From: Thermaerobacter subterraneus DSM 13965
GTDB lineage: Bacteria; Bacillota; Sulfobacillia; Thermaerobacterales; Thermaerobacteraceae
Assembly (NCBI RefSeq): GCF_000183545.2
Contig: NZ_JH976535.1
Coordinates: forward strand, 2,295,837-2,359,836
Direction: 5' to 3'
Length of the DNA stretch: 64,000 bases
Numbering within the stretch: the first letter of the stretch is position 1; every line of letters starts with the position of its first letter. Position numbers and translations under genes: made by a program. The notes beneath the pieces were generated by a model, which worked only from the letters and a program-made list of their open reading frames with translations, did no database searches and was not told where the DNA came from. Of the stretch, positions 31,512 to 40,741 are shown one piece after another.

Positions 31512-32533
31512 TCAGGAGCCGGTCCGGCCCTTTCCCCCCACGCGGCCCGCAGGCCCCGGCTGCGCGCCCGGGGCCGGGGAGCCGGCGGCTTCCGGCTCGC
31601 CCGCCGTCGACGAGGCGGGCGCCGTGGGCGGGGGACCGTCGACGGGCAGCACCACACGCATGCGCGTGCCTCGGCCCGGCTCGCTTTCCACGTCGATATG
31701 CCCGCCGTGGCTGCGGACGATGCCGTAGCTCACCGCCAGGCCCAGGCCCGTACCCCCCTCCTTGGTGGAGAAGAAGGGGTCGAAGATCCGGCCCAGATGT
31801 TCGGGCGGAATCCCGGGCCCGCGGTCTTCCACCTCGACCACCACGGTCCCCGCCGCGGGATTGGCGAAGGCCCGGATCTGCAGGCAGCCGCCTTCCGGCA
31901 TGGCGTCCAGGCCGTTGCGGATCAGGTTGAGGAACACCTGCCTCAGCTGGCTCTCGTCGGCCACCACGGGCGGCAGCGGCTCCCTCACCCGCAGCTCCAC
32001 CACACAGCTCCGGGCCGCCTGGTCCAGCCGGATCATGTCCACCAGCCTCTGCAGCAGCGCCCCCACATCCACGCGGCGCAGGCGCAGCCGGGGCTGGCGG
32101 GCCAGCAGCAGCAGGTCGTTGACGATGGTCTCGATCCGCTCGATCTCCTGCAGGACGATGTCGATGTAGCCCGCTGCCTCGCCTTCCAGCCGCCGGTCCA
32201 GGAGCTGGATGAACCCCTTGATGGCGGTGAGGGGATTGCGGATCTCGTGGGCAGCGCCCGCCGCCAGCTGGCCCACCGCCGCCAGGCGCTCCGAGCGCCG
32301 CGCCCGCAGTTCCAGTTCCCGTTCCTGGGTCACGTCCTGCAACAACACCACGGCCCCGGCCTTCTCCCCGTCCGGTCCCACCAGGGGAAAGGCCCGGACC
32401 GCCACGGCCAGCGGTGACCCGTCCCGCCCCTCCAGCTCCAAGAGGCGCGGGGGCAGGGGCTCGGTCGCCTCCAGCTGTTCCAGAAGCATGCTATCACAGG
32501 GGTTGCTCGCCCCCAAGGGCCGCGGCCGCGATA
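31512..32533 (-). pseudogene. 3' fragment of IS-disrupted sensor histidine kinase
   Basis: C-terminal part of the kinase whose 5' part is at 34052-36166. It holds the end of a PAS domain (VRAFPLVGPDGEKAGAVVLLQDVTQE), HisKA with the phospho-accepting H-box AAHEIRNPLTAIKG, the N-box [11 protein letters not shown]1 [10 protein letters not shown]-box IFDPFFST and G2 GGTGLGLAV of the HATPase, and a Pro/Ala/Gly-rich tail. The kinase core is intact, but the membrane and input modules are lost. Its frame joins the 5' part exactly when the IS and one 9-bp duplication are removed. A soluble kinase could only be made from a start inside the fragment; I see no good one. Confidence 0.85.
32525..32533. repeat. 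Target site duplication of the insertion sequence (left copy)
   Basis: GCCGCGATA, identical to the copy at 34159-34167. Nine bases is the duplication length known for ISLre2-family elements. Confidence 0.92.
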
Positions 32534-32580: not shown

Positions 32581-33513
32581 TTACGCCACAGAAAGGCCGG
32601 CCAGGTGCCGTAACGCCTGCACCCACTCACGGTCCGCATGCGGCCCGTAGAGCGCCGGGATCCGCACCCGCAGCCACTGGGCGACATCCTCCACGTCGCT
32701 CCGACTCAGGCGCTGCCCGAACAGCCGGCCTTGCGGGGTCGACACCACCGGTGGCGCCTGGCGGCGCTGCCAGACCGGACGCGCATAGCGCTCGAGCTCC
32801 CCATTTGCTCGGGCCGCCAACAGGCGGGCCAGGTGCCGTGCCCCGCCTTCGCTCCACGACGCTCCCCGTCGCTTCATCCGCCGGGCCAGCACGTGGTAAT
32901 TCTGCCCCTCGATCGCACCAAGCCGCCGCACGTTCGCGTCGGCCACGATGCCGTCCCAGTGGTTCTTCATGTACTGCTTCAGCTCTTGGACGCGGTCGCG
33001 GTCGTCTCCCTGCGCCCGCCGGCGAGCCGCATCCAGGATCGCCGCCACCTCGGGCCACGGCTTCCCCTCGGCCAGCGCCGCCGCCAGCTGCCGGTGGGCT
33101 TCCGGATCATGCCGCAGCCCGCGCCGCAGCGCCCGCTTGAGGTGGAACGGATCGAGGCGATAGGTGGCCTGGGGGAGGTACTCCAGCACCTTGCGGATCC
33201 ACGGCGCCCCGTCCCCACCCACCGTGCACTGTTCCACCCGGGCCCAATCCCACGCCGCCGCAAAGGCCGCCAGCGCCTCCTCGATGGACGCCGTCCCTTC
33301 GCCCACGGCCACGTGCACCCGCCGGTTCTTCAGCACCGTCCGCCCCCGCGCGTCCGTCGCCTTGCCCTCATACGCCAGTGCATGCATCAGCGCGATCCGC
33401 TCTTTCTGCCCATCCGGCCCGCGCCGCCGGCCCCGCACCAGCAGCTCGTCAAACTCCAGGTCGACGGCGGCCGCCGGCCGGCTCCCGGGCGGGATCTCGC
33501 CCCGCTCAAACAC
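32581..33513 (-). CDS. ISLre2 transposase, C-terminal part (frameshifted)
   Basis: 310-residue C-terminal two-thirds of a UPF0236/ISLre2 transposase. It contains the catalytic-region sequences family members share: VDLEFDELLVRGRR, the VGGDGAPWIRK block with its Asp, the LDPFHLKRAL block, and AIEGQNYHVLARRMKRRGASWSEGGARHLARLLAAR. It begins with a GTG at 33513 overlapping the end of the N-terminal frame by 8 bases. Removing one G from GGGAGGGCGG would join the two into one ~488-codon frame reading QREAVFERGE, as expected for a single-ORF family. So it is either a frameshift mutation, a sequencing error in a G-rich run, or translational coupling. Confidence 0.85.
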   Translation of the reverse strand: MFERGEIPPGSRPAAAVDLEFDELLVRGRRRGPDGQKERIALMHALAYEGKATDARGRTVLKNRRVHVAVGEGTASIEEALAAFAAAWDWARVEQCTVGGDGAPWIRKVLEYLPQATYRLDPFHLKRALRRGLRHDPEAHRQLAAALAEGKPWPEVAAILDAARRRAQGDDRDRVQELKQYMKNHWDGIVADANVRRLGAIEGQNYHVLARRMKRRGASWSEGGARHLARLLAARANGELERYARPVWQRRQAPPVVSTPQGRLFGQRLSRSDVEDVAQWLRVRIPALYGPHADREWVQALRHLAGLSVA

Positions 33514-34042
33514 CGCCCTCCCGCTGCGCCTTCGCCGCTTCGTCCGCTCGGGCCCCGGCCGCCTGCACGTCCGCCCACAAGGCCATGGCGCTCAGCCGCA
33601 CGGCCCCGCAGCTCACCCGCTCCAGCCAGTCCGCTGCCGCCGCGAACGGCACTTGGGTGCACAGCTGAATCCCGAACTCCTGCACCAGCGGCGAGTACCG
33701 CTGCCGCGGCGCCAACCCGAGCACTTCATCCAGCAAGAACCGCCGTACCCCGCTTGGCCGCTCCTGGTAATACCGCCGTTCCCACTGGATCTCGCCCACC
33801 CACGTCATCAGGCTTCGTGGTTGCCGGTTGACGCACTTCAGTTGCCGCCGGTCCCGCTGCTCCATCAGCTGCCGGTCCAGCGCCTCCAAGGCCGTGACCA
33901 GCAGCTGCCTCGCGGCCTCCTGCGCCCCTCGGACCACGGCCACCTCCAGCATTCGAAAGTCCGGCGCCTCCCACACGGCCTTTTCCACAACCCGCGCAAG
34001 CTGCAGGGTGATCTCCCCGATGCGGCGAATCACATCCTTCAT
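33506..34042 (-). CDS. ISLre2 transposase, N-terminal part (frameshifted)
   Basis: 178-residue N-terminal part, starting at the ATG at 34042 behind a GGAGGTGA site. It includes the conserved NRQPRSLMTWVGEIQWERRYY and LDEVLGLAPRQRYSPLVQEFGIQL segments of the UPF0236 family, then runs out of frame after the ADEAAKAQRE helix and stops at 33506. See the C-terminal part for the proposed single-base lesion. Confidence 0.85.
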   Translation of the reverse strand: MKDVIRRIGEITLQLARVVEKAVWEAPDFRMLEVAVVRGAQEAARQLLVTALEALDRQLMEQRDRRQLKCVNRQPRSLMTWVGEIQWERRYYQERPSGVRRFLLDEVLGLAPRQRYSPLVQEFGIQLCTQVPFAAAADWLERVSCGAVRLSAMALWADVQAAGARADEAAKAQREGGV

Positions 34043-34134
34043 GGAGAGGCCTCACCTCCATCCTTGGCCAGAAGGATCGGCTGTCCCGTTTGGGACAACC
34101 TGGTGAGGTCTCTCCTTCGCTTTTCCCCCACCAG

Positions 34135-34158
34135 CACCTACTGAAACTTTAGGCAGTC
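34135..34158 (-). repeat. Right terminal inverted repeat of the IS
   Basis: Complementary copy of the left end, reading outward-in GACTGCCTAAAG...GTAGGTG. Confidence 0.88.
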
Positions 34159-34167
34159 GCCGCGATA
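34159..34167. repeat. Target site duplication of the insertion sequence (right copy)
   Basis: GCCGCGATA, directly adjacent to the right inverted repeat and identical to the left copy. Confidence 0.92.
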
Positions 34168-36238
34168 CCACGGCCGGCGCCCAGCCGGCCCGCTCCAGGA
34201 TGGCCGCCGCCGCGCGGTTGACCAGGGTGACCGTGCCGGCGGCGTCAGCGGCGACGATGCCTGTCCCCACCTGCTCGAAGATCAGGTCCTGGAACCGCTT
34301 CAGGGCGGTGAGCTCCTGCAGGCGCGCCTGGACCTGCTCGAACAGGCGGGCGTTGTCGAGGCTCAGGGCCGCCTGGCTGGCCACCACCGCCAGCAGGTCC
34401 GTCTGGCTCAGGGCCTGGGGGAGGGGCTCGTCCCGGACCACCACCACCGCCGCCAGCAGCTGGTCCCTGGCCACCAGGGGCAGGGCCAGCACCCACCGCC
34501 GCTGGCCCGCCAGCAGCCAGTCCGGCCCCTGGCCGGGTTCCAGCCGGGCCAGCAGCGGCCTGCGCCCTTCCAGCAGCCGCTGGAAGGGCGGGCGGTGCAG
34601 ATCCAGCTCTCCGCCCACCAGGCCCGGCGGCCCGTTGCGCAGGGCCGCCACCCGCAGCACGCCGGCCCGGCCCCCCGGAACCAGCCACAACACGCGCCCG
34701 CCCACGACCTGCAGGAAGGTGTCCAGGACCCACTCGGCCACCTCGTCCGGGTGCAGGGTGGCGTTGATCACCCGGGCCAGGTGGGAGAGAGCCACCACCG
34801 CTCCCGCCGCCTGCCGCACCAGGACCTCGTCGTCGAAGCCCGTACCCCGGCCCTTCGCTCCCCGCCCCGCTTCCCGGACGAACCGGCGCAGCTGCTCAGC
34901 CGCCACGGCCAGCTCCCCGGCCATGCTCAGTCCCCGCTCGGGCAGCCAGGCCACACTGCCCCGCACCTGTCCCAGGGCCTCCACCACCCGGGGGTCGAAC
35001 CGGCTGCCGGCCCGGCCCTGCACCGCCTCCCAGGCCGCCCCGGGATCGCCCCAGCGCTGCAGGGCGAAAAGATAGGCCTCGGCCACGGCCAGGATCCGGC
35101 TGCACAGGGGGATGGCCGTGCCCCCCAGGCCGTCGGGCCCGCCGCTGCCGTCCCAATGCTCGTGGTGGTGCCGGAGGACCCTCGCCACCGGCTCCAGCAC
35201 CGCGATCCGCGCCACCTCCCGGGCCGAGGCCACGGCGTGGCGGGCCAGCTGGGCCGGAGCGGGATCGCCGTCGTCCATGCCCAGGGGGCGCGGCCCGCCT
35301 GCCTCGTGGAGAAGCGCGGCCTGGCGCAGGTTGTCGACGTCCCGCCCGGACACCCCCAGCGCCTCGGCCAGCTCGGTGACCAGCCGCACCAGCATGTCGG
35401 CCCGGCGCAGACCCTGGGGGTCGGCCTGGAGGGTGCGCAGGAAGCGTTCCACCGCCCGCTGCCGCAGGTGGCGGGTCCAGACGGTGGCCACGTAGTGGTG
35501 GACCACCGTCAAAGCGGGGAAGGCGGCCAGGGCCGCGGGGGGATAGCCGTGGCGGGTGAAGAGGATGTAGACGCCCAGGGCCAGCAGGGCGGACACCGCC
35601 AGCCGCCAGCTGTCGGCCACCAGGTAGGTGCGCACCTGCTGCCCCAGGGGAACCCGCTTGTAGAGGGCGAAGGCCACCGTCACCAGGGTGGCGTTGACCA
35701 GGCCGAAGGCCACGGCGCTGGCCAGGTAGGGGGTGGCGGTGTCGCCCGCCACGAGGGGCTGGCCCCACGCGCCGCCGGTGAAGCGGAAGGCCGCAGCGGC
35801 GGCCAGCACGGCCAGCACCGTCTGGCCGATGTTGAAGGCCGTGACCAGGCCGAAAGAGCGCCGGCGCAGGGCCAGCAAGCTCCAGCCCACCACCTCGGCC
35901 CAGATGGGCACGGGCGGCCCCAGGAGCCACAGGGACACCAGGACCACCAGAGAGCCCATGGAGACCGCCTCCCCGCCGGGGGCGGGCACCTGGTACAGTT
36001 CGGCCACCAGCAGGGCGCAACCCAGCACCAGCACCAGCACCGATGGCGGCACCGGCCAGCGCACGGCCTGGACCACCAGGCCCGCCAGGCCCAAGGTGGC
36101 CACGGCCAGCATGTACCGGGCGACGGTCCCCGAAGGCTTCATAGCGGTTCCACTTCGCTGGTCCAAGCGGCAACCCTCCCCGGCGGCGTGCAGCCGCAGG
36201 AGCCCGGGCCGGAATCGCGGTGCCGGTGCCCCTGCCCA

Positions 36239-36278
36239 CGCGAAAGCCGCGTTCGCCCCGGCGAACGCGGCTTTCGCG
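36239..36278. terminator. Strong hairpin upstream of the sensor kinase
   Basis: Perfect 19-bp inverted repeat (CGCGAAAGCCGCGTTCGCC and complement) with a 2-base centre. It lacks a clear T-run, apart from AAA/TTT inside the arms. It lies between the short peptide frame (36464-36550) and the kinase start, so it probably ends the upstream transcript. Confidence 0.6.
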
Positions 36279-36463
36279 TCGCAGCAGCCGGCTCCGCAGC
36301 CCCGGCCGAGGGCCGGAGGGCCCGCCGGACCGGTTCCACCTGCCTTTACACCCCACCGGTGCCCGTGTTTTGATGGTGGTAACCCGGGTGCGAGGGGCGC
36401 GGTGGTGCCTGCAGCCAGGCCGGCCAGGGCTGCGGGTCCGGGCCCAACCCTTCCGGCAAGGGA

Positions 36464-36550
36464 CTACATGGGCCAGCTGACCTGATAGTTCACCACGATG
36501 GTCAGCGCCGCCAGCACACCGGCCAGCAGCTTCGCCGCACGGTAAAGCAT
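36464..36550 (-). CDS. Putative 28-residue hydrophobic peptide
   Basis: ATG at 36550 follows GGAGGTGACGGGG, a near-consensus ribosome site at 5-8 bases, and the frame ends in TAG at 36464. The product starts MLYRAAKLLAGVLAALTIVV and ends NYQVSWPM: a positive N-terminus, one hydrophobic helix and a short polar tail, as in small single-pass membrane peptides. It has no Cys and no charged C-terminal tail, so it does not fit AgrD. It sits alone in a ~880-base region between guaA and the sensor kinase, on the same strand as both, with a hairpin after it. Function unknown. Confidence 0.45.
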   Translation of the reverse strand: MLYRAAKLLAGVLAALTIVVNYQVSWPM

Positions 36551-36954
36551 CCCCGTCACCTCCACCCGCGTCCGGCCGGTCCCGCCCCTCCCGCTGATCC
36601 CGGGCGGCGACCGGCCGCTCCTTGTCGCGGCCCGGCCCGTTCCCTCCGGCCCTGCTAGGAAAAGGTTACGACAAGCCCCCGCAAGATCCTCCTAAATTCG
36701 AAAAAATAGGACCGTGCTTCGACCTTTTTCGTCATGTTGTGGCACAGGCAGGCTGCAGCGCCGGGACCAGTCCGGCTACATACATCCTTCGCCGCTGCCA
36801 CGGCCAACCTGTCCCTCGCCCGGGCGCCCTTCTTGTCGAAGGATGTCTGGGACCCGGGGCTCACCGCCTGGGTCCAGGGCCACGGGCCGGGATCCCCTCG
36901 CCTGGGGCCGGACCCATGCGCCCGGGGCCACCGGCCGGGCAGGGGTCCCTAAGC
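36551..36954. other. Intergenic region with an AT-rich island
   Basis: About 400 bases between the short peptide frame and the guaA terminator. Within it 36655-36740 is strikingly AT-rich for this genome (AAATTCGAAAAAATAGG, CTTTTTCGTCATG), so it is a likely promoter or protein-binding region for the downstream peptide and kinase. Sequences close to the Spo0A box TGTCGAA occur at 36834-36840 (TTGTCGAAGG, plus strand) and 36719-36723 (GTCGAA, minus strand). A minus-strand frame of 69 codons (36655-36864) crosses the island but has no ribosome site or family resemblance. Confidence 0.4.
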
Positions 36955-36984
36955 CCGGAACCCGGCCTCGGGGCCGGGTTCCGG
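36955..36984 (-). terminator. Hairpin downstream of guaA
   Basis: Perfect 13-bp stem (CCGGAACCCGGCC and GGCCGGGTTCCGG) with a TCGG tetraloop, 62 bases after the guaA stop. Only a short T-pair follows, so termination strength is uncertain. Confidence 0.5.
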
Positions 36985-37045
36985 CGGCCATGCCCAGGTC
37001 TGACGCCTCCCCACGGCTCACTCCCACAGGCCTGACCCCCCGGCG

Positions 37046-38620
37046 TCACTCCCACTCGATGGTCGCCGGGGGCTTGGACGTGATGTCGTAGACCACGCGG
37101 TTGACGCCCTCCACCTCATTGGCCAGACGGCGGGCGATACGGTCGAGGACCTCGTGGGGCAGGCGGGCCCAGTCGGCCGTCATGCCGTCCCCCGAGGTCA
37201 CCGCCCGCACGGCCACCGCCTCGCCGTAGGTGCGCCGGTCGCCCATCACGCCCACGGTGGGCGTGCCCGTCAGGACGGCGAAGGCCTGCCAGAGGCGACC
37301 CTCCAGCCCGGCCCGCCGGATCTCCTCCCGGACGATGCGGTCGCAGGCCCGCAGCCGTTCCAGCCGCTCGGCGGTCACGGGCCCCGCCATGCGGATGGCC
37401 AGCCCCGGGCCGGGGAAGGGCTGCCGCTGGACGACGGCCTCCGGCAGCCCCAGGCGGCGCCCCACCTCCCGCACCTCGTCCTTGAACAGGTAGCGGAGCG
37501 GCTCCACCAGCCGGAACGCCAGGTCCGGGGGCAGGCCGCCCACGTTGTGGTGGCTCTTGATGGTCGCCGCGGCGCCGCCCCCGCTCTCGATCACGTCGGG
37601 ATAGGTGGTCCCCTGCACCAGGAAGGGGATGGGTCCCAGTTCTTCGGCCAGCTGGCGGGCCTCTTCCTCGAACACGCGGATGAAGGTCTCGCCCACGGCC
37701 TTGCGCTTGGCCTCGGGGTCGGCGATGCCGTCCAGGGCGGCCAGGAACCGGTCCCGGGCGTCGACCACCCGCAGCTCAATGCCCAGCCCGACCAGGCTTT
37801 CCTGGACCTCCTCCACCTCCCCCGCCCGCAGCAGGCCCGTGTCGACGAACACGCAGGCCAGCCGGGGCCCGATGGCCCGGTGGACCAGAACCGCCGCCAC
37901 GGTGGAGTCGACCCCGCCGCTCAGGGCGCAGAGGGCCCGGGCTCCCTCCAGCTGGCGGCGCAGGGCGGGCACCGCTTCCTCGACGAAGCCGGCCATGGTC
38001 CAGCCGCCCCGGCAGCCGCACACGCCGTAGAGGAAGTTGGCCAGGATCTCCCGGCCCCGGGGGGTGTGGCCCACCTCGGGGTGGAACTGGACACCCAGCC
38101 AGCGGCCGCCGCCTCCCTCCACCGCGGCAAAGGGCGAGGCGGCCGTGCGGGCCAGGACGGTGAAGCCCGGCGGCAGCGTTTCCACCCGGTCGCCGTGGCT
38201 CATCCACACGTCCAGGCGCGGCCCCAGGCCGGCCAGCAGGCGGCCGGGTTCCTCCACCTCCAGGGTCGCCGGGCCGTACTCCCGCTCTTCCGCGCGGGCC
38301 ACGCGCCCGCCCAGCTGGTGGACCATGAGCTGCATGCCGTAGCAGATGCCCAGAACGGGCACCCCGGCATGCCACAGGCCGGGATCGCACTGGGGGGCAC
38401 CGGGCTCGTAGACGCTGGCCGGACCGCCGGAAAGGATCACGCCCCGCGGCCGGTGGCGCAGGATCTGGGCCAGCGGCGCGTTGTGGGGCAGGACCTCCGA
38501 GTACACCCCCAGCTCCCGCACCCGGCGGGCGATGAGGTGGCCGTACTGGGAGCCGAAGTCCAGGATCACCACCCGCTCGGCGGGTTCGGCCGGGGAAAGG
38601 GGGGAACGGGCATCGGACAT
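37046..38620 (-). CDS. guaA: GMP synthase (glutamine-hydrolysing)
   Basis: Converts XMP to GMP with ATP and glutamine-derived ammonia, the last step of de novo GMP synthesis. 524 residues: a class I amidotransferase domain ([21 protein letters not shown], nucleophile Cys in GICYGMQLM, His-Glu in VQFHPEVGH), an ATP-pyrophosphatase domain with the PP-loop [10 protein letters not shown], and the dimerisation domain ending [19 protein letters not shown] at 38620 with AAAAGGAG upstream; an extended -10 box lies about 29 bases before the start. guaB, the preceding enzyme, is encoded separately at 46662. Confidence 0.97.
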
Positions 38621-38648
38621 GGTCCCATCGCTCCTTTTCATTGACGGC

Positions 38649-38657
38649 ATGATACCA
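38649..38657 (-). promoter_or_regulatory. Putative extended -10 promoter of guaA
   Basis: TGGTATCAT on the minus strand, fitting TGnTATAAT at 8 of 9 positions, about 29 bases before the guaA ATG. The -35 region (ACCGGC) is not recognisable, as often with extended -10 promoters. Confidence 0.45.
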
Positions 38658-38707
38658 TGGCCCGGCCTGAAGCCGGTCCCCCTTGACACGCCGGTCCCCC
38701 TTGAAAG

Positions 38708-38740
38708 AGCACGCCGCGGGGTTCCGCCCCGCGGCGTGCT
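38708..38740 (-). terminator. Intrinsic terminator of groESL
   Basis: Perfect 14-bp stem (AGCACGCCGCGGGG and CCCCGCGGCGTGCT) with a 5-base loop, followed on the minus strand by CTTTCAA. It lies 76 bases after the groEL stop. Confidence 0.7.
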
Positions 38741-38815
38741 GTGTTCCGGGAAGGGTGCCGCGCACCAGCGGCTTGCGGCCACCCCGATCGGGCCGGTCCC
38801 TTCGCGGCGACCGGA

Positions 38816-40453
<1,638 letters not shown>

Positions 40454-40741
40454 TTACTGAACGATGGCCAGAATGTCCCGCTCGCTGAGGATCAGCAGCT
40501 CCTCGTCATCCAGCTTGACCTCGGTGCCGGCGTACTTGGAGAAGATGACCCGGTCACCTTCCTTGACCTCCAGGGGCACCTTCTGGCCATTCTCGAGGAT
40601 GCGGCCCGTGCCCACGGCCAGGACCTCACCCTGCTGGGGCTTCTCCTTGGCCGTGTCCGGCAGGATGATCCCGCCCTTGGTCCGCTCCTCTTCCTCCAGC
40701 ACCTTGACGACCACCCGGTCGCCGAGAGGGCGCAGCTTCAC
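40454..40741 (-). CDS. groES: Co-chaperonin GroES (Hsp10)
   Basis: Lid of the GroEL chamber. From the GTG at 40741 it is 95 residues, the normal length, beginning with [24 protein letters not shown] and ending [22 protein letters not shown] stands 9 bases upstream. A second GTG at 40780, also with a good AGGGAGGTG site, would add 13 residues ([12 protein letters not shown]), so the start is ambiguous between the two. The mobile loop ([18 protein letters not shown]) is intact. First gene of groESL. Confidence 0.96.

Follow-up and report, generated by a model that had tools for sequence, protein, structure and literature searches.

The locus examined here raises two linked questions: whether a frame of only 28 codons, standing alone between guaA and a sensor kinase, is a gene at all, and what its product might have to do with the kinase encoded behind it. 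The window (the whole stretch of DNA analyzed) comprises 64,000 nucleotides of the Thermaerobacter subterraneus DSM 13965 genome (contig NZ_JH976535.1). By translation and comparison of family genomes, the micropeptide gene consists of 28 codons plus a stop (MLYRAAKLLAGVLAALTIVVNYQVSWPM; positions 36464 to 36550, minus strand), with its ATG at 36550 and its final stop base at 36464. The ATG is preceded by GGAGGTGACGGGG, giving the layout GGAGGTG-ACGGGG-ATG, in which the Shine-Dalgarno (SD) site GGAGGTG occupies 36557 to 36563 (minus strand). Codon counting places the C-terminal tail QVSWPM at 36467 to 36484 (minus strand). A sequence-only reading had described a short frame with a near-consensus ribosome site, on the strand of the sensor kinase and in an otherwise empty interval of ~880 bases, and these points were borne out: guaA, the micropeptide gene, and the kinase gene all lie on the minus strand, and the gap from guaA to the kinase start (36142) is roughly 900 bases. 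Pfam and NCBIfam scans assigned the micropeptide to no family, and the three distinct sequences of the genus, scanned against NCBIfam at E values up to 10, likewise matched 0 families, a result to be read with the tendency of HMMER filters to lose weak matches of short proteins. Known RNA families at the locus were rejected as well, since the only matches (microRNA, snoRNA, and sRNA models) were below gathering scores and were taken as chance.

The surroundings of the gene are partly conserved. The upstream neighbor guaA (GMP synthase; 37046 to 38641, minus strand) is also found upstream in other family genomes. An AT-rich island noted earlier corresponds to an upstream dip in GC content to 0.63 to 0.66 at ~36600 to 36900, with flanks at 0.70 to 0.77, and a hairpin that had been given as 19 bp exists before the kinase but has 20 bp (36238 to 36279, no strand assigned; arms at 36238 to 36257 and 36260 to 36279, by reading). 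A related CCGCGT...ACGCGG hairpin is present in the other four family genomes. For the hairpin and the AT-rich stretch, no tie to micropeptide action was found. Reading of the DNA further identified a block CATCAAAACACGGG...GTGTAAAGG between the micropeptide and the kinase (36343 to 36375, minus strand), which keeps a constant spacing in the genus and is possibly promoter-like, and a block GGTCCTA...TAGGAGGATC upstream of the micropeptide (36685 to 36713, minus strand), which has similar counterparts in three other genomes and is duplicated in G003. Beside the GGTCCTA...TAGGAGGA block lie Spo0A-box-like blocks (TTTTGTCGAAAA in G003 and ATTTGTCGAAAAT in G001), so called on the basis of what we take to be the Spo0A box motif; they stand upstream of the micropeptide at L003, L004, and L013, the counterpart site in the window being 36685 to 36713. 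A Spo0A C-terminal domain is encoded in the window's own genome.

Comparison within the family indicates that the frame in the window is a real gene. An initial search of 61 genomes (the window's own and 60 relatives) recovered the micropeptide in the three other genomes of the genus, with two weak matches left uncounted (one with an internal stop in G010 and one within a 220-residue frame in G054). A profile built on the genus micropeptides then recovered all five family genomes, a second genus included, and in 5/5 of these genomes the micropeptide lies between guaA and the same kinase. The label "orphan" given to the peptide was thus not borne out. Start, Shine-Dalgarno site, and frame are kept in all five genomes, with the same GGAGGTG in each and a length of 28 or 29 codons; the four distinct sequences have M1, R4, Q23, S25, W26, and P27 in common, so that Q, S, W, and P of the tail are invariant. 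The 87-nt frame departs from that of the near-identical genome G002 at 1 position, the third base of the stop codon, compared with 14 differences in 300 nt upstream and 16 in 300 nt downstream. Loss of the frame in relatives had been named beforehand as the outcome that would count against the gene, and the frame proved to be conserved. A second proposed check, the comparison of synonymous with nonsynonymous changes, was favorable in direction and modest in size: at larger distances within the family, pN for the micropeptide frame was 0.27 to 0.42 and pS was 0.47 to 0.60, consistent with moderate constraint.

The partner of the micropeptide is a multidomain sensor whose gene is interrupted in the window. 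Its N-terminal part (34052 to 36142, minus strand) comprises a membrane domain, HD_5, GAF, and the start of a PAS domain, and the final codons of this frame fall past the insertion point of a UPF0236 transposase. The transposase (32581 to 34042, minus strand; two overlapping frames at 32581 to 33513 and 33506 to 34042) splits the sensor gene, and the C-terminal kinase half follows beyond the insertion (31512 to 32516, minus strand), as judged against the whole G002 protein. In G001, G002, and G003 the kinase is whole, with 969, 991, and 968 residues, respectively, and the G001 protein carries HD_5, GAF, PAS, HisKA, and HATPase domains. In the window genome the kinase is split while the micropeptide is intact, and this break in the receptor gene may keep the pair from working there as it does in relatives. 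The HD_5 domain of the window sensor is well recognized (PF13487, E = 2.9e-19), and an intact HD motif is absent from the sensor in the window and its family, which has LLHEAGG in place of the core LHDxGK.

The membrane domain of the sensor (residues 1 to 239; 35426 to 36142, minus strand), which served both as bait and as the region for fold modeling, appears to be MASE9-like. The Pfam MASE9 model (PF20972) matched neither the window protein at E values up to 1 nor the G001 domain at E values up to 5, and the own-family domain is linked to the core domain profile by hhalign (98.7%, E = 2.8e-16, 135 columns). Among the core proteins themselves, MASE9 was matched at an E value of 1e-5 by 32/46 peptide-positive and 16/27 peptide-negative members. 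An AlphaFold2 model of the window domain, built from 9 sequences (the window and eight relatives), had a pLDDT of 76.8. When this model was aligned with VIA-align 2, ECF-transporter S-components and CbiM-type proteins occupied each of the first 21 rows (Z = 14.4 to 8.2) and the row after these had a Z of 5.5, values to be read with the facts that the rows were drawn from Foldseek's list, where the best E value was only 0.022, and that high Z scores are not unusual among helical bundles. The modeled domain thus resembles ligand-binding ECF S-components, although a shared fold proves no function. Known members of the S-component fold hold small ligands.

Because the micropeptide is so short, we distinguish searches with its own sequence from searches with the sensor domain. 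The peptide profile gave a match at E values up to 1 in 68 of 154 class genomes, of which the 5 family genomes were counted as convincing; of the others, the one inspected, at L020, has its match in a frame that overlaps with a longer gene. In 398 phylum genomes the same profile found the 4 own-genus genomes and G426 (E = 0.0078), and no convincing relative outside the family. A profile of the core peptides, i.e., those found at the phylum-level loci described below, scored the window peptide at 2.2 bits, which was reached by 441 of 3876 scored shuffled decoys, and the score from a profile of the class-level peptides was reached by 430 of 3941. Under the core profile the class-level peptides were divided, five of the eleven scoring clearly higher than decoys, and their family matches (LptM, E = 0.25; DUF7322, E = 0.039; LSR, E = 0.13) were all below curated cutoffs. 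The window peptide is related to the core peptides by position, size, and layout, and the profiles did not support the relationship.

Searches with the sensor domain revealed a much broader pairing. With the kinase membrane domain as query A2 and a cutoff E value of 1e-8, 28/154 class genomes matched, family included. Many of these distant sensors are preceded by a short hydrophobic frame that has a Shine-Dalgarno site, and at 11/25 class loci outside the family this frame has W-P or W-G near its end (e.g., MVRRIFWSLALLATLALAGLSQISWPDIP in G006, VKNLLRALVTLALLALAGGAWINWPW in G048, and MARVLKVAVPLALVAIFALSAAAQSNWPW in G039). We then applied a fixed rule (a frame of 18 to 50 residues, mean hydropathy of >1.8 over 15 residues, and a Shine-Dalgarno site), which was set after these peptides had been seen and was slightly altered later. 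Under this rule 16 frames passed at the 25 class loci and 0 passed on the reverse strand; 15 were family-like, the frame at L062 passing the rule, being unlike the family, and being excluded from the 15/25. Nine of the 25 loci had no frame, and at three of these (L045, L046, and L041) the flank is short or a gene abuts.

At the level of the phylum, a broader profile (A4) found the membrane domain in 124/398 genomes and 89/266 genera. The micropeptide was present at 26/26 of the best loci outside the genus (the best 30 of the matches minus 4 own-genus loci), with 0 on the reverse strand; examples of these core peptides are MKNIVKAILALVALVLAGGGTFWW, MKKATIIKVLLALLALALAGGANLSWQ, and MNKVVLILVTLLGVVLAGGASFTWGGGG. 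Among the matches listed, 47 of the next 79 loci had a micropeptide 60 to 400 nt before the match, again with 0 on the reverse strand. These 79 loci are the next 81 rows minus G526, which lies near a contig end, and G171, an 80-base stub, and the interval of -400 to -60 was chosen after the data were seen, with 4 rule-passing frames falling outside it. Seven of eight named loci, including a Thermincola and a Symbiobacterium thermophilum MAG, also carry the micropeptide; six of them repeat peptides of genomes already counted and provide no independent test.

The occurrence of the micropeptide follows the output domain of the sensor. We took in the downstream proteins for 46/47 positive and 27/32 negative loci of the 79-locus set. 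All 46 positive proteins have HD_5 with invariant HD-GYP motif columns (one also has GGDEF), whereas the 27 negative proteins include 19 with GGDEF and 9 with HD_5, one having both. Among sensors sharing the membrane domain, the micropeptide thus precedes 46/55 that contain HD and 0/18 that have GGDEF only (Fisher P = 8.5e-11, a value made too small by counting each related sequence on its own, although the split spans many families). Nine HD-containing sensors lack a micropeptide by the rule; L153, L160, and L171 were counted as negative, although a shorter peptide could be made out there by eye once the scan was relaxed, and L172 was counted as negative with a rule-passing frame just outside the interval. 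The HD motif pattern is present at 25/26 of the best phylum loci, and L090, which fails the pattern, shows VHDVGK and HH by eye. The window genome itself has a second protein with the membrane domain (L151, L183; G000:C1:2445553-2446218), which is of the GAF-GGDEF type and has no micropeptide. The micropeptides found in this way form a group of very short peptides with aromatic tails whose genes lie immediately ahead of one type of sensor. The earlier proposal that the peptide might serve the kinase as a small membrane regulator or as a signal peptide is partly supported: the conserved pairing (5/5, 15/25, 26/26, and 47/79) speaks for it, and the idea that the peptide is an orphan does not hold.

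The core peptides share a simple layout: a basic N terminus leads into a helix of ~16 residues, frequently closed by AGGA, and a tail only a few residues long follows. An aromatic residue occurs within the last six positions in 74/74 core peptides (from the best 26 and the next-79 sets), and it is Trp in 60. Within families the leader is constant and the tail varies: one family has LSWQ, LQWN, LKWT, LTWG, VSWG, and YTWG, and another has TFWW, SVWW, SFYW, SIYW, and TYFW. For ten groups comprising 38 peptides, pooled pN was 0.071 in leaders versus 0.238 in tails, and tail pN exceeded leader pN in 8/10 groups, being 0 in the other two. In label shuffles, 0/2000 reached the pooled pN difference, with the reservation that pairs drawn from one group depend on each other. 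Leaders have the lower pS as well (0.262 versus 0.535 in tails), so part of this contrast reflects constraint on the leader DNA. Tail pN is lower than tail pS, and we read the tails as diverse, not positively selected.

The DNA upstream of core peptides carries signals of its own. In the 125 nt upstream of the 74 core frames we counted 111 AGCGRA repeats versus 9.55 expected from shuffles, an excess that kinship inflates; at least two repeats occur in 36/74 upstream regions, with 0 on the reverse strand (e.g., L109, L117, L157, and L099:3166-3214). No Rfam family was found for this region, either in 20 loci at gathering scores or in 20 regions at an E value of 0.5, and it is perhaps an undescribed RNA element. 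Single folds of core upstream regions often have the micropeptide Shine-Dalgarno site paired, which suggests a structured leader on the strength of single folds only; RNAalifold gave no consensus pairs for 30 aligned core upstream regions. Three kinase-type operons have a c-di-GMP-I-GGC riboswitch (RF03167) 211 to 218 nt before the micropeptide (L039:2544-2636, minus strand; L040:578-670, plus strand; L044:2542-2632, minus strand), linking the pair to c-di-GMP.

We are somewhat inclined to regard the micropeptide as a cognate partner of the adjacent sensor, acting either as a membrane-presented ligand or as a subunit or co-receptor. What we observed here for this reading is the conservation, the pairing, the bias toward HD-type sensors, and the fold resemblance, along with core tails that vary more than their leaders and always keep an aromatic residue. 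Against it stand the profile comparisons that do not recognize the window-family peptides above decoys, a tail pN below tail pS (and 0 in two groups), the HD-containing sensors and class loci that lack a micropeptide, and the split kinase beside an intact micropeptide in this genome. The micropeptide would span the membrane as a single helix, the basic end lying inside and the short Trp tail outside. The tail, either cleaved and diffusing as a pheromone or kept attached, may then be presented to the S-component-like (MASE9-like) domain of the neighboring sensor and could change the sensor's output, which would be an HD-GYP-type phosphodiesterase in most of the relatives examined and, in the window family, a histidine kinase whose HD motif is degenerate. 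More speculative, and in our view rather doubtful, is the general form of this idea, that exported or tethered aromatic-tailed micropeptides serve across the phylum as specific ligands of MASE9-type sensors that reuse the S-component fold, known from vitamin transporters, to receive peptides, each lineage having its own tails. If it were true, peptide signals would set c-di-GMP through HD-GYP domains and a kinase pathway in the window family.

Two other roles would also place a small gene here, as would chance. An open frame with a Shine-Dalgarno site could arise by accident, and the 54 frames of at least 25 amino acids that overlap 33000 to 40500, like the own-family pN only moderately below pS, allow for this. 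Yet start, Shine-Dalgarno site, and tail are conserved in 5/5 genomes of two genera, the frame is nearly free of differences from G002 while its flanks are not, and the pairing with the sensor is phylum-wide; because of this conservation and pairing we reject a chance frame as extremely improbable. The micropeptide might instead be a structural subunit whose helix packs through small residues (AGGA) and serves the folding or stability of the sensor, not signaling. One gene beside one membrane protein would fit such a part, as would the better conservation of the helix in core groups and the S-component-like fold of the partner domain; CbiM-type S-components function with a small membrane partner. 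A packing helix, however, has no need of the aromatic residue kept in every core tail, the tails vary among close relatives while the helix is constant, and none of the 18 GGDEF-only sensors with the same domain has a micropeptide. We consider a purely structural role fairly unlikely.

The micropeptide could also be a regulatory leader peptide, whose translation or RNA controls expression of the sensor in cis and whose product matters little. The constraint on synonymous sites of leader codons, the conserved, folded-looking DNA upstream of and around the start of core peptides, the strand-specific AGCGRA repeats, the c-di-GMP-I riboswitches in three kinase-type loci, and the hairpin between micropeptide and kinase in our own family are all in keeping with such control. 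The same RNA signals may equally regulate production of the micropeptide, which would suit a signaling gene, and a hydrophobic helix with an aromatic tail is maintained across the phylum. Known arrest peptides conserve the C terminus, whereas in 8/10 core groups no part varies more than the tail; core tails are variable, yet our own family keeps Q-x-S-W-P. On balance we hold a leader peptide to be improbable, yet both it and the structural subunit are serious rivals of the ligand reading.

AgrD-type precursors and AgrC-type kinases combine a short, basic-start membrane peptide with an adjacent multihelix sensor, the leader being kept and the C-terminal part varying. The pair described here shares these features, but its sensor partner is MASE9-like with an HD output. 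No AgrB-like processing gene was present among the neighbors examined (guaA and the sensor; in G001 the sensor, pcrA/uvrD, ligA, and an oligopeptide ABC transporter), and the invariant ring Cys/Ser with a charged tail is absent: S25 is invariant but is followed by 3 to 4 mostly hydrophobic residues, and Cys occurs only in G004. We rejected an AgrD-type autoinducer on the lack of a model match and of AgrB among the examined neighbors. MgrB and SafA are small one-helix membrane regulators of sensor kinases, and the micropeptide is likened to them by description, not by sequence, as a single-helix protein with a membrane sensor as its supposed target; in contrast to them, its gene lies directly before the sensor gene and accompanies this type of sensor across many families. 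The model of the sensor domain aligns best with ECF S-components and CbiM-type proteins, but here the domain forms one protein with HD, GAF, PAS, and kinase domains, and no transporter context was seen among the genes examined. As for MASE9 (PF20972) sensors, many core members match the model directly, and the own-family domain is linked to them by profile comparison.

For MASE9-type sensors, the adjacent micropeptide is a concrete, testable candidate ligand or subunit, and searching just ahead of a sensor family offers a way to find genes of 23 to 31 codons. If the tails are pherotypes, peptide signaling would feed straight into c-di-GMP control in many little-studied bacteria. The passages on sensing in a 2022 review of c-di-GMP sensing (PMC8846402) contain no peptide signal. 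A literature search, with subscription literature largely outside its coverage, found no paper on micropeptide-sensor pairing, and in the text it covered, the name MASE9 was matched only in a colorectal cancer paper.

Other small elements are found close to some of these pairs. At L059 upstream and at L083 downstream of the sensor are C-terminal ends with an (I/V)S(I/V)GD(V/I)xMAIGLFLLIQ-like stretch, belonging to a small membrane protein that is presumably DUF5317. At L072, L078, and L091, ACCCAAACC ahead of the micropeptide gene is by eye the complement of GGTTTGGGT behind it, and at L080 and L115, AAACCGCTT likewise pairs with AGCGGTTT around the gene. Such flanking complementary blocks are a possible long-range stem around the whole micropeptide gene.
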